Positions 21,839 through 27,345 of a DNA stretch of 64,000 nt are shown piece after piece. Each line of letters starts with the position of its first letter. Positions within the stretch are counted from its first letter, which is position 1. Location of the stretch: the NCBI RefSeq assembly GCF_000178115.2, contig NC_014828.1, positions 1,271,310 through 1,335,309 on the forward strand. The letters are read 5' to 3'. This stretch comes from Ethanoligenens harbinense YUAN-3 (GTDB lineage Bacteria > Bacillota > Clostridia > Oscillospirales > Ethanoligenentaceae). The notes below the pieces were generated by a model. It had not been told where the DNA came from. It was given only the letters and a program-made list of their open reading frames with translations, and searched no databases. Both the position numbers and the translations under genes were made by a program.

Positions 21839-21917
21839 GTTCATCCATTTTTTCGGGTTTTGTTCATCGCTCTATTGTCGCGCAGGTGTTTTCGTTATGG
21901 CAGACATTCCGCAGGTT

Positions 21918-24900
21918 TCAATCACGCTTGTCATTCGAATGGTCGCGGTGTTTTTTGCGGAGAGCGGCGGTCACCAGACCGGCCAAACCCAACATAGCGA
22001 ATACAGATGCGAGCGGCGGATACGCGGTGTTTCCGGTATATGGATTTTCGATGATCGTGGAGGATTCTCCGGCGACTGCTGTTGGAGTAGGCGTTTCCGG
22101 GGTGACGGGGACAGCCATATAGTTGTTGGTAAAGCTGGGCAGGTCGTTTATGGCTGCACCGCCGCTTGTCTGATAGCTGACGCTGCCGTCTGCGCCTATG
22201 ATGACGTTGTAGGTGGCGTTGCTGTATGTCCAGCCGGTGGGAACGGTGCCGGGCTGCACCTCGCTCATGACGAGGGTGGTGGTCCCGCTGGCAGGCAACT
22301 GGAAATTGCTGTTCATCGAGAACGTGACGGTTCCGGCTTTGTCGGTTTGCGCGGTGCCGACCGTGGTCGAGCCGTCTTTCAGTACGAAGCTGAAACCGCC
22401 GTCCGGAATCGTCGTTGGGTTACCGGTAATGATTTTGGTAGCCTGGATCGCACTGAGGACAGGGGCGGTGTAGCTGTTGGTAAAGGTGGGCAGACCGTCC
22501 AAGGGTATGCCGTCGTTTGTCTGATAGCTGATGCTACCGTCTGTGCCTACGATGACGTTATAGGTGGCACCGCTGTATGTCCAGCCGGCGGGAAGGGTGT
22601 CGGGCTGTACTTCACGCATGACGAGGGTGGTGGTCCCGCTGGCGGGCAACTGGAAATTGCTGTCCATCGAGAACGAGACGGTGCCGGCTTTGTCGGTCTG
22701 CGCGGTGCCGACCGTGGTCGAGCCATCTTTCAGTACGAAGCTGAAACCGCCGTCCGGGATCGTCGTCGGGCTGCCGGTAATGATTTTGGTGGCCTGGATA
22801 TCACCCAGATTGGGGGTGGCGAAATAGCTGTTAATGAATATGGGCAGCACCGGAAGCGCTATACTGTCGCTTGTCTGATAGCTGACGCTGCCGTCTGCGC
22901 CTACAATGACATTATAGGTGGCGTTGCTGTATGTCCAGCCGGTGGGAACGGTGCCGGGTTGTACCTCGCTCATGACGAGGGTGGTGGTCCCGCTGGCAGG
23001 CAGTTGGAAATTGCTGTCCATGGAGAATGTGACGGTACCGGATTTGTCGGTCTGCGCGGTGCCGACCGTGGTCGAGCCGTCTTTCAGTACGAAGCTGAAA
23101 CCGCCGTCCGGGATCGTCGTCGGATTGCCGGCGATGATTTTAGTAGCCTGGATCGCACTGAGGACAGGGGCAGTGTAGCTGTTGGTAAAGGTGGGCAGAC
23201 CGTCCAGAGGGATGCCGTCGCTTGTCTGATAGCTGACGCTGCCGTCTGCTCCTACGATGACATTGTAGGTGGCGCCGCTGTACGTCCAGCCGGTGGGAAT
23301 GGTGCCGGGCTGTACTTCACTCATGACGAGGGTGGTGGTCCCGCTGGCGGGCAACTGGAAATTGCTGCCCATGGAGAATGTAACGGTGCCGGCTTTGTCT
23401 GTCTGCGCGGTGCCGACTGTGTTTGCACCGTCTTTCAGCACGAAGCTGAAACCGCCGTCCGGAATCGTCGTTGGGCTGCCGGTAATGATTTTGGTAGCCT
23501 GGATATCACTCAAAGTGGGGGTGGCGAGATAGCTGTTAATGAATACGGGCAGGCCGTCCAGCGGGATGCCGTCGTTTGTCTGATAGCTGACGCTGCCGTC
23601 TGCACCCACGATGACATTATAGGTGGCACCGCTGTATGTCCAGCCGGTGGGGATGGTGCCGGGCTGCACCTCGCTCATGACGAGGGTGGTGGTCCCGTTG
23701 GCGGGCAGCTGAAAATTGCTGCTCATGGAGAACGTAACGGTGCCGGCTTTGTCTGTCTGCGCGGTGCCGACCGTGGTCGTGCCGTCTTTCAACACGAAGC
23801 TGAAACCGCCGTCCGGGATCGCCGTCGGGCTGCCGGCGATGATTTTGGTAGCATGGATCGTACTGAGGACAGGGGTGGTGTAGCTGTTGGTAAAGGTGGG
23901 CAGACCGTCCAGAGGAATGCCGGCGCTTGTCTGATAGCTGACGCTGCCGTCTGCGCCTACGATGACATTATAGGTGGCACCGCTGTATGTCCAGCCGGTG
24001 GGGATGGTGCCGGGCTGCACCTCGCTCATGGTGAGAGTTTTGGAGCCGCTTGCCGGAACCGGAATGTTTGCGAATGTGAAGTTGCCGGCTCCACTGACCT
24101 GTGCGGTGCCGACCGTAGTGGTACCGTCTTTCAGTACGAAGCTGAAACCGCCGTTCGGGATCGTCGTTGGGTTGCCGGTGACTGCTTTGGTGCCGTGGAT
24201 ATCAACGGTGGCAGGAGGAGGGGTGATGTAACTGTTGGTGAACGTGGGCTGCCGACCGTCGCTGGTATTATATACGACGCTGCCGTTGGACTGGATGGTG
24301 ACCGTGTAGGAGGCGGTGCTGTATGTCCAGCCGGTGGGAACGGGGGTGGGCGTCTGTTCGCTCATGGTGAGGGTTTTGGAGCCGCTTGCCGGAACCGGGA
24401 TATTTGTGAATGTGAAGTCGCCGGCCCCTGTGACTTGTGCAGTGCCGACCGTCGTGGTGCCGTCTTTCAGTACAAAACTGAAAGTCGGGGTGGTCGTCGG
24501 GGTGCCGGTGACTGCTTTGGTGCCGTGGATATCAACGGTGGCAGGTGGGGGGGTGGTGTAATTGTTGGTAAAAGTGAAAATGGTAGGAGTTGTGGTGGAA
24601 GGCGGGCATTGTAGCAAAGATGAGTCGTTCTCTACATAGGTAAGGTTGAGATTTTGATCAATGGTTACTGTATAGGAGATGGCGCTGTATGTCCAGCCGG
24701 TAGGAACGGGGCTGGGCTGCACCTCGTTCATGGTGAAGGTGATCGGCATATGGAAATTGGAGTTCAGATTAAACGAAAATGGGGTGTCGGCCTTGTCGGC
24801 GTGTGCGGTGCCGACCGTAGTGGAACCCTCTTTCAGCACAAAATCGAAACCACTATCCGGAAACGTGGAGGTGCCGGTAATTTCTTTTTTAACCTTGAAA

Positions 24901-25346
24901 GAGGGAAACACATTATTTCCCACAACATAATGGCTGATTTTGGTTGCATGGAGATAGAGATGACCGTCTGTACCGTATTGCACGTAATATTGGCCGAAAT
25001 TGCTGTCGGCCCAAGCCGGTGCGGGGCAGGTAATGGTTTGCCCGGGGGCGGGCACCCCGCTGAAATAGACCGCGTTTGTTGTGGACTGTGAACCGGGAAC
25101 GTTTTGCAGGCTTTGCGTGATGAGGCTCTGGATGTCTTGGGATACGGGATACCTTGTCCAAACGACAAGGAAGGTAGCCTGTTTGACGGCTGCCACATCA
25201 TAGCCGTCAATGTTTAATGGACTGGTTTGGTCAATTGAGGAATAAGTTCCTGGCGCAGTCGCGGGTGTAACCGCGTTTGCAGTCGTAGGAAGAAAGGAGG
25301 AAAAGCCAAGCAGCAATGACACGAGCACGCTTAAAAACTTCCTCAT
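21918..25346 (-). CDS. wall-anchored adhesin with eight Spy0128/FctA-type isopeptide repeats
   Basis: 1142 residues. A signal peptide (about 1-25) is followed by an N-terminal domain of about 150 residues, then eight repeats of about 110-120 residues, a short linker and a sorting region: NPYTG, a hydrophobic segment and a basic tail. Each repeat has a lysine in ATKIITG or HGTKAVTG, a glutamate in MSEVQP and an asparagine in FTNSY, the positions that form an intramolecular Lys-Asn bond in streptococcal pilin domains. NPYTG is not LPxTG and resembles NPxTG-type sortase signals. AAAGGAGG lies just upstream of the start. The repeats are nearly identical in sequence. Probably a rigid stalk adhesin or pilus-like protein; no sortase gene lies in the window. 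Confidence 0.87.
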   Translation of the reverse strand: MRKFLSVLVSLLLGFSSFLPTTANAVTPATAPGTYSSIDQTSPLNIDGYDVAAVKQATFLVVWTRYPVSQDIQSLITQSLQNVPGSQSTTNAVYFSGVPAPGQTITCPAPAWADSNFGQYYVQYGTDGHLYLHATKISHYVVGNNVFPSFKVKKEITGTSTFPDSGFDFVLKEGSTTVGTAHADKADTPFSFNLNSNFHMPITFTMNEVQPSPVPTGWTYSAISYTVTIDQNLNLTYVENDSSLLQCPPSTTTPTIFTFTNNYTTPPPATVDIHGTKAVTGTPTTTPTFSFVLKDGTTTVGTAQVTGAGDFTFTNIPVPASGSKTLTMSEQTPTPVPTGWTYSTASYTVTIQSNGSVVYNTSDGRQPTFTNSYITPPPATVDIHGTKAVTGNPTTIPNGGFSFVLKDGTTTVGTAQVSGAGNFTFANIPVPASGSKTLTMSEVQPGTIPTGWTYSGATYNVIVGADGSVSYQTSAGIPLDGLPTFTNSYTTPVLSTIHATKIIAGSPTAIPDGGFSFVLKDGTTTVGTAQTDKAGTVTFSMSSNFQLPANGTTTLVMSEVQPGTIPTGWTYSGATYNVIVGADGSVSYQTNDGIPLDGLPVFINSYLATPTLSDIQATKIITGSPTTIPDGGFSFVLKDGANTVGTAQTDKAGTVTFSMGSNFQLPASGTTTLVMSEVQPGTIPTGWTYSGATYNVIVGADGSVSYQTSDGIPLDGLPTFTNSYTAPVLSAIQATKIIAGNPTTIPDGGFSFVLKDGSTTVGTAQTDKSGTVTFSMDSNFQLPASGTTTLVMSEVQPGTVPTGWTYSNATYNVIVGADGSVSYQTSDSIALPVLPIFINSYFATPNLGDIQATKIITGSPTTIPDGGFSFVLKDGSTTVGTAQTDKAGTVSFSMDSNFQLPASGTTTLVMREVQPDTLPAGWTYSGATYNVIVGTDGSISYQTNDGIPLDGLPTFTNSYTAPVLSAIQATKIITGNPTTIPDGGFSFVLKDGSTTVGTAQTDKAGTVTFSMNSNFQLPASGTTTLVMSEVQPGTVPTGWTYSNATYNVIIGADGSVSYQTSGGAAINDLPSFTNNYMAVPVTPETPTPTAVAGESSTIIENPYTGNTAYPPLASVFAMLGLAGLVTAALRKKHRDHSNDKRD
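21990..24240 (-). repeat. tandem repeat array inside the adhesin gene (about 350 bp units)
   Basis: Units of about 117 codons repeat with very high nucleotide identity. The unit ends alternate between FTNSYTAPV and FINSY(L/F)ATP types, so the last copies also form a higher-order period of about 700 bp. This points to recent two-domain duplication, and copy number may vary between strains. Confidence 0.8.
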
Positions 25347-25457
25347 GGTATAGCCCTCCTTTAACGTAGTTTTTGGGTCGCAATTCCATTTTTGAGATAG
25401 AGTCGTTCGTATATACATATATACATATGGAAAGAGAAGGATATTCTCCACATCTAC

Positions 25458-25488
25458 ATTTTACCGCTCGCCGGTCACGTTCCGGTCA
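25458..25488 (-). promoter_or_regulatory. adhesin promoter with SARP-like direct repeats
   Basis: On the minus strand two identical heptamers TGACCGG (25482-25488 and 25471-25477) are separated by four bases, an 11-bp period. They end seven bases before a -10 like TAAAAT (25458-25463). There is no consensus -35; the heptamers occupy its place. This is the arrangement used by SARP activators, and a BTAD regulator is encoded directly upstream. The remaining bases of the 382-base intergenic region show nothing else except the terminator at 25629. Confidence 0.65.
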
Positions 25489-25628
25489 TAACTGATGGGG
25501 AAATCATCCAATTGTAAAGAATTTATGTACTTTTTTTAAATTTTTATACCATATGCTCATCCTTGCTCTTACAGTGCCTGTGAACATGAAAGGGTATTTC
25601 CAGGAAATAAAAAATTACAGAATTTACC

Positions 25629-25728: not shown

Positions 25729-26940
25729 CTATGTAGTGGGGGCGAGGGGATTAAGCGTCATGTTCAGGGAGATGTCTCTATGCCGGTAGATTTTTTTGAA
25801 TTTCTCCATGAGCCGTTTTAGCACCACCGGTCCGTTTTCAAAAGTCAACGCCGGTAGCATCACCAGATATTGTGAATTGCTGAACCGGGAAACCACGTCA
25901 CCTTTGCGCAGACTGTGCAGGATGACGTCCTTGAGCACTGACATGGCCTCGGTGATTCGCTTTGGATCCGATTGTGCGGCGGAAGAACGAAGCGTGAACA
26001 GCGCAATTAGAATCGAATGGTTTTGCCGCTCGGCAAATCTTGCTTCAATACGGTAGAGATTTCGGAAAATCTCATAATCGCAGTAATATGCGCTGGGAGG
26101 TGTTTGGCTTTCTTTTAAATCTTTGCTGATCATGGAGAGATCGTTTTCAGTGCTGTCCATTGTTTCAAAAACTTCCTGCATGTGGCTGCGGAACCGATCG
26201 GACAGACGTACGCCAAGTTTCTCGTTGAAAAGGTTGGAGATGTATTCATAATGATCCATCGCCTTTTGCCGGTAGCCTGCCGCCAGATACGCGTGGATTA
26301 GTATTTCGTGCACCGGTTCTTCAAAAGGATCGAAACCGATTGCGTGTTCACACAGCGCCACCGTTTCTTCATGCTGCCCATTTTTGAGAAGCAGGGCCGA
26401 CAGGTTCTGTACGCACTCCATGTAAATGCGGGCATAGTGCGTGTTCCGAAAAACCACCCACTCTTCCGATGCGGATTTCGGAAGAAACTCGCCCTTGTAG
26501 CATACGGTTGCCAGACGATAGGCGCGCATGCGCTCTTCTTCCGGAATATCGGGCACGCGGGCCTCCAGAAAATGCTTTTCAAATTCTTCTGTATCGACAA
26601 CGCATGGAATCTCGTTGTTCCAGGCATAATTGTTGCGCGTAAAGATGATGAAATCGCACGCACCGGCATCACGGATGCCTTCAAGCAGGCCGCGTATGCG
26701 ATAGATCAGGTTTTTTAAGGCATTGGCAGGTTTTTCACAATTTCCTTCCGGCCACAGCAATTCAAACAGTTTCTCCTGCGAAATCGTCGTATGCCTGTTG
26801 GCAATCAGATATTCCAGCAGGAGCCAAGGCTGCTTGGTACGCCGCAGGTCATCGGTCAGAACCATATCCCCCCGTTGAATAGAAAAGCCGCCGAACATGG
26901 TGATCTCCACAGTTTTTTCTGCCGCGCGTTTTGTCATCAT
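25729..26940 (-). CDS. SARP-like regulator with BTAD and degenerate GGDEF-like domain
   Basis: 403 residues. Residues about 10-105 are an OmpR-type winged helix (FGGFSIQRGD, LLLEYLIANRHTTISQEKLFELLWPE, NLIYRIRGLL). Residues 115-265 are a bacterial transcriptional activation domain of TPR type (CVDTEEFE-like entry, CYKGEFLPKS, YARIYMECVQNLS, CEHAIGFDPFEEPVHEIL). The C-terminal 120 residues resemble a GGDEF fold with RKGDVVSRFSNSQYLVMLP, but the GGDEF signature is lost, so catalysis is unlikely. GTAAGGAG lies six bases before the ATG. It is immediately upstream of the adhesin gene in the same direction and is its likely activator. Confidence 0.88.
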   Translation of the reverse strand: MMTKRAAEKTVEITMFGGFSIQRGDMVLTDDLRRTKQPWLLLEYLIANRHTTISQEKLFELLWPEGNCEKPANALKNLIYRIRGLLEGIRDAGACDFIIFTRNNYAWNNEIPCVVDTEEFEKHFLEARVPDIPEEERMRAYRLATVCYKGEFLPKSASEEWVVFRNTHYARIYMECVQNLSALLLKNGQHEETVALCEHAIGFDPFEEPVHEILIHAYLAAGYRQKAMDHYEYISNLFNEKLGVRLSDRFRSHMQEVFETMDSTENDLSMISKDLKESQTPPSAYYCDYEIFRNLYRIEARFAERQNHSILIALFTLRSSAAQSDPKRITEAMSVLKDVILHSLRKGDVVSRFSNSQYLVMLPALTFENGPVVLKRLMEKFKKIYRHRDISLNMTLNPLAPTT

Positions 26941-27271: not shown

Positions 27272-27345
27272 TGGTTGCGGGAGAAGGATTCGAACCCTCA
27301 CAAACAGAGTCAGAGTCTGTCGTGCTACCCTTACACAATCCCGCA
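27272..27345 (-). tRNA. tRNA-Gln (anticodon CUG), CCA encoded
   Basis: Acceptor TGCGGGA pairs fully with TCCCGCA, followed by A and the encoded CCA. The D arm has GGGTAGC. The anticodon stem ACAGA/TCTGT encloses loop CTCTGAC with anticodon CTG, and the T arm has GGTTCGAATCC. The length is 74 bases. It stands alone with its own terminator. Confidence 0.95.

Follow-up and report, generated by a model that had tools for sequence, protein, structure and literature searches.

How transcription of a large surface adhesin gene is started in Ethanoligenens harbinense YUAN-3 is the question raised by the locus described here. It lies within a 64,000-nucleotide stretch of contig NC_014828.1 (positions 1,271,310 to 1,335,309), referred to as the window, in which coordinates are numbered from the first letter. 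The original prediction held that a heptamer repeat in front of the adhesin gene is a SARP-type site, read by a BTAD/winged-helix regulator encoded directly upstream. SARP sites are direct repeats at 11 or 22 bp of which the 3' repeat lies 8 bp from the -10 element (PMC10936776). AfsR binds such repeats as a side-by-side dimer that contacts bp 1-8 of every 11-bp repeat, with R92 touching the T at repeat position 3, and engages sigma region 4 in replacement of the -35 contact (PMC10936776).

The adhesin gene and the regulator gene

The adhesin gene (21918-25346, minus strand) encodes a protein of 1,142 aa with a signal peptide, eight FctA (Spy0128-like) domains and a C-terminus composed of an NPYTG-like sorting signal, a membrane anchor and a basic tail; signal peptides and the sorting signal were assessed by eye. 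No other FctA protein is encoded in the genome. The GTG at 25451, which gives the longest open reading frame, was dropped as start codon, and the ATG at 25346, located behind AGGAGG (25360-25355), was retained. A 905-aa open frame (21897-24614, plus strand) runs opposite the repetitive adhesin gene and is most likely a by-product of codon composition rather than a gene.

The regulator gene (25729-26940, minus strand) encodes 403 aa, and the predicted domain content was borne out by Pfam: both PF00486 and PF03704 score over the cut-off, with an N-terminal OmpR-type DNA-binding domain (Trans_reg_C, aa 32-88) followed by the BTAD (aa 115-257). A degenerate GGDEF domain occupies about aa 304-394. 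When a profile of 12 regulator members was compared with the PDB, AfsR was the best regulator match (1.8e-12, positions 10-261), EmbR matched at 1.1e-7 and the C-terminal third matched diguanylate cyclases. AfsR, EmbR and GGDEF structures were also returned by a fold search with a modest model of the regulator (AlphaFold, mean pLDDT 62, DNA-binding domain too poor for docking). The DNA-contact residues R92, R94, W74 and Q48 of AfsR correspond to R81, R83, W63 and Q37 in the regulator. Aligned with a Thermotoga GGDEF domain (6e-8), its C-terminal third reads RKGDVVSRFSNSQY against RRSDVVARYGGDEF in Thermotoga. The GG(D/E)EF active-site motif is gone, with SNSQY and variants instead, and the protein does not classify as a diguanylate cyclase. 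The RxxD motif of the I-site is kept (RKGD, aa 345-348), its R and D being invariant in an alignment of 10 diverse members. Just one other BTAD protein is encoded in the genome (C1:2954803-2955156, locus L013), too distant to count as a homologue. Just upstream of the regulator gene lies a tRNA gene (27275-27345, minus strand), the sole Rfam match in the window.

Between the two genes, a strong intrinsic terminator (25678-25633, minus strand) parts the adhesin from the regulator, and the adhesin therefore probably needs its own promoter.

The repeats and the probable promoter in the window

Around the repeats, the minus strand reads TTATGACCGGAACGTGACCGGCGAGCGGTAAAATGTAG. The predicted elements were confirmed in letters, strand, spacing and position: TGACCGG (25488-25482), AACG, a second TGACCGG (25477-25471), the seven nucleotides CGAGCGG and the -10-like hexamer TAAAAT (25463-25458), with no -35 hexamer at the usual distance from TAAAAT in the window. 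The hexamer follows 8 nt past the conserved core TGACCG of the second unit. The whole box (25469-25490, minus strand) consists of the 11-bp direct units TATGACCGGAA and CGTGACCGGCG. With a start near 25451 assumed, the predicted 5' leader of the adhesin mRNA covers 25347-25451 (minus strand; about 105 nt), and no riboswitch or other Rfam family was detected in it at Rfam thresholds.

The exact repeat sequence is a single copy in the 3.01-Mb genome (3,008,576 bp). A chance match without function would be in keeping with the number of exact heptamer pairs with a 4-nt gap in the window, which is seven versus 4.9 expected; pairs that are followed by TAnnnT at 6-8 nt number one versus 0.2 expected. 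On the window alone, the repeats are not beyond chance, and the comparison across genomes is decisive.

The box in relatives of the regulator

The same intergenic DNA was sought in 40 relatives and found in none. Homologues of the regulator with 40-51% identity occur in other genera. At these loci, literal TGACCGG repeats were rejected as the conserved element, since the letters are not conserved and only a degenerate form recurs at L057 and L056. Behind the regulator gene of genome G238 (L057) stands TGACTGG-TGTG-TGACTGT-CATAAGG-TATGAT, and behind that of G328 (L056) TTACCAG-TATG-TGACCAA-TATATGG-AATAAT, both shortly ahead of the gene that comes next. In G328, the unit behind the regulator runs on into a VWA/List-Bact surface protein of 1,413 aa. 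A second box of this genome stands before the gene of a secreted protein of 394 aa, whose N-terminus is related to the N-terminus of the adhesin in the window (26% identity, 3.6e-7). A first search pattern with GG before the -10 element was too narrow and was abandoned, GG not being part of the box.

The generalised box TGACYN5GTGACYN9TAnnnT (TGACYNNNNNGTGACYNNNNNNNNNTANNNT) was searched for in 394 genomes of the order, of which 74 carry a homologue of the regulator (E ≤ 1e-15) and 320 do not; co-occurrence was computed for homologues of the BTAD regulator alone. Of 29 matches, 24 come from 11 of the 74 homologue-bearing genomes and five from five of the 320 others; the reversed pattern, used as control, gave seven sites in the 394 genomes. 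Counted by genome, this corresponds to a Fisher p of 1.0e-5, the genomes being sampled from a single order and sharing descent; counted by site, it corresponds to a binomial p of 1.6e-13, with sites within one genome not being independent. G000, G238 and G077 supplied part of the pattern, so that their sites are not independent of it; those of G291, G146, G031, G167, G352 and G002 are. The five matches in homologue-less genomes lie mostly inside other coding sequence, and the G091 site, within a tnpB-like gene, was taken as chance.

Box and regulator are also physically linked. The regulator gene adjoins a box-bearing target in G000, G238, G328 and G167 and lies about 4 kb off in G352, a linkage in five genomes with a rough binomial probability of 5e-7. 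In G167, the box is followed by the gene of a 2,669-aa surface protein and directly after it by the regulator gene. That the window repeats arose by chance is accordingly the least probable of the alternatives considered: the site fits, without a mismatch, a pattern that marks surface genes in other families, it stands between the regulator gene and a surface gene, and no second site of this kind turns up in the 3 Mb even when one mismatch is allowed.

Alternatively, the box might be bound by another protein that recognizes 11-bp repeats, with the BTAD gene merely a frequent neighbour. The DNA-binding fold is common to OmpR-family response regulators, which likewise recognize direct repeats of 11 bp, and a two-component response regulator of the OmpR/PhoB type would also agree with the many genomes that encode a BTAD homologue without a box: 63 of the 74 lack an exact match, including four with homologues of 40-43% identity (L022-L025). 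However, boxes are concentrated in genomes with the BTAD gene (74 of the 394 genomes, holding 24 of the 29 sites), the two are linked in five genomes, and the repeats end 8 bp before the -10 element, as SARP sites do, whereas sites of class II activators are usually centred at -42. We consider such a binder unlikely.

Geometry and consensus of the box

When the gaps were left free (42 combinations, 78 genomes), 15 of 20 sites had gaps of 5 and 9, the spacing of the window. Three further sites with gaps of 6 and 9 (G140, G181 and G201), corresponding to a 12-bp period, keep the same distance to the -10 element and all precede genes of secreted proteins, namely two thioester-domain proteins (one also with SpaA) and one secreted protein without assignment. 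The remaining two look like chance.

Columns left free in the pattern were conserved as well: the first TGAC is preceded by T (25/25) and G (23/25) and the second GTGAC by T (23/24), a purine follows each TGACY (23/24), and the -10 element reads TATA(A/C)T. The unit is thus TGTGACYR plus three free bases, an 11-bp repeat that ends 8 bp from the -10 element, and the full consensus is TGTGACYR-N3-TGTGACYR-N8-TATA(A/C)T. With direct repeats at 11 bp and the 3' repeat 8 bp from the -10 element, at the -35 position, this is the arrangement of a SARP site. The predicted heptamer was therefore right in that the TGACCGG pair is present, but the conserved unit is TGTGACYR every 11 bp and not the whole heptamer. 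Fitted to this unit, the window carries TATGACCG and CGTGACCG. It deviates from the consensus in its -10 element (TAAAAT) and in a C instead of T before the second GTGAC; the G before the first TGAC is replaced by A both in the window and in G002, which belong to the same family.

The same geometry bears on whether the regulator could instead act as a repressor, with transcription starting from an upstream TACAAT (25516-25511) and the repeats serving as a downstream operator. A weak sigma-70-like promoter does lie upstream of the box (25511-25540, minus strand; TTTAAA or TTAAAA with TACAAT), yet such promoters occur at about chance level (two found, 1.2 expected), and relatives show a good -10 element at a fixed distance after the box without a -35, as in activator-dependent SARP promoters. 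Repression is thus improbable to a high degree.

Targets and neighbouring genes

The degenerate box recurs upstream of surface genes: 17 of the 24 sites precede genes of secreted or surface proteins; three precede the gene of a conserved protein of about 160 aa and four are unassigned. Targets combining VWA with a GBS104-like tip-pilin Ig domain occur in G077, G002 and G238, VWA targets in G291 and G146, a thioester-domain target in G146, List-Bact repeats in G167, PMP repeats and LRR in G291 and FctA in the window, next to further secreted proteins without an assigned family. One gene of G146 is preceded by two boxes, 104 bp apart. A simple regulator-target pair, as originally proposed, fits the genome of E. 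harbinense with its one box, but relatives possess a regulon with up to six exact sites per genome.

The protein of about 160 aa has no Pfam family and ends in FRSxLEMLRLMDxAL (L057:8321-8800, L056:7584-8075, L087:998-1477). It is box-controlled, or adjoins the regulator or a target, in many relatives and stands behind the regulator in L022, L024 and L025; it is likely a third component. Some relatives have sortase genes shortly after the regulator (L057:9068-9823, L067:7902-8768), in agreement with the sortase-type anchoring of the targets. Neither a sortase nor the protein of about 160 aa was convincingly found in the window. A perfect box in G031 faces a stretch without a clear reading frame, followed by a hairpin and T run (L118:1501-1760), which is possibly a small RNA under the same control.

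At L055, L061, L066 and L073, regulator homologues lie beside T2SS-F-like or pilus-ATPase-like genes, together with a secreted transglutaminase-like protein whose conserved tail reads YIGDxxNYxxxYxY. These homologues may form a second branch of the family that lacks the box and controls a type II/IV-pilus-like machinery. The position of AfsR R92 is lost in the homologues of G167 and G352, although both genomes have boxes, and many box-less homologues are found near type II/IV-pilus-like or transglutaminase-like genes; recognition has therefore probably diverged within the family.

Proposed mechanism and comparison with known systems

Based on co-occurrence, linkage, spacing to the -10 element and surface-protein targets, all of which were computed from sequence, the repeats very probably serve as operator for the BTAD regulator of the gene just upstream, a SARP-type activator that would recruit RNA polymerase to the adhesin promoter. 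Each of the two 11-bp units, which together span about -39 to -18, would be occupied by one of two adjacent regulator molecules. These would stand in for the absent -35 element and keep RNA polymerase at the TAAAAT -10 element, as a result of which the adhesin gene would be transcribed. The box has the 8+3 structure, the T at position 3 and the spacing of the AfsR site, and four of the five AfsR contact residues have their counterparts in the regulator; we infer that the regulator binds the box and activates by the AfsR route.

AfsR of Streptomyces coelicolor likewise joins an OmpR-type DNA-binding domain to a BTAD (PMC10936776). The afs box at the afsS promoter has two 11-bp direct repeats of 8 conserved and 3 free bp, located 8 bp from the -10 element at the place of the -35, with a T at repeat position 3 that is read by an arginine. 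In contrast, AfsR serves antibiotic genes of an actinomycete, whereas surface adhesins of a Clostridia-type Firmicute are concerned here; the afs box reads CGTTYATCG instead of TGTGACYR; T88 of AfsR is N77 in the regulator; and the C-terminus of AfsR carries NOD and TPR domains in place of a degenerate GGDEF. EmbR of Mycobacterium tuberculosis (PDB 2fez) is similar in having the DNA-binding and BTAD module with a small C-terminal sensory domain, but this is an FHA domain reading phosphothreonine rather than a GGDEF-like domain.

Degenerate GGDEF receptors such as PelD bind c-di-GMP at the I-site. The regulator resembles them in its GGDEF fold, lost active-site motif and retained RxxD; it differs in that the domain is joined to a SARP-type DNA-binding module and that its ligand site is a predicted one. 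The degenerate GGDEF domain of the regulator probably senses a signal, possibly c-di-GMP. In Clostridia, c-di-GMP riboswitches control adhesins and pili, the same class of target genes; control would here be exerted at the promoter, with no riboswitch in the leader. It is conceivable, though we hold it only tentatively, that a family of SARP-type activators with a degenerate GGDEF senses c-di-GMP at the I-site and, in several families of anaerobic Firmicutes, turns on genes of sortase-type pilins and adhesins through TGTGACYR-N3-TGTGACYR boxes. If true, this would be a direct route from second messenger to adhesin promoter, distinct from the clostridial riboswitch route.

A literature search that covered few subscription papers returned no description of the regulator, of the box or of transcription factors that combine BTAD with GGDEF. 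The recurrence of the box ahead of pilus and adhesin genes in many related bacteria suggests a control system for bacterial surface proteins that has not been described before. SARP promoter logic, known for the activation of actinomycete antibiotic genes, appears to control adhesins and pilins in Firmicutes. The defined box can be searched in any genome, which yields a target list for poorly understood surface proteins along with their likely regulator, and makes the link to c-di-GMP directly testable.
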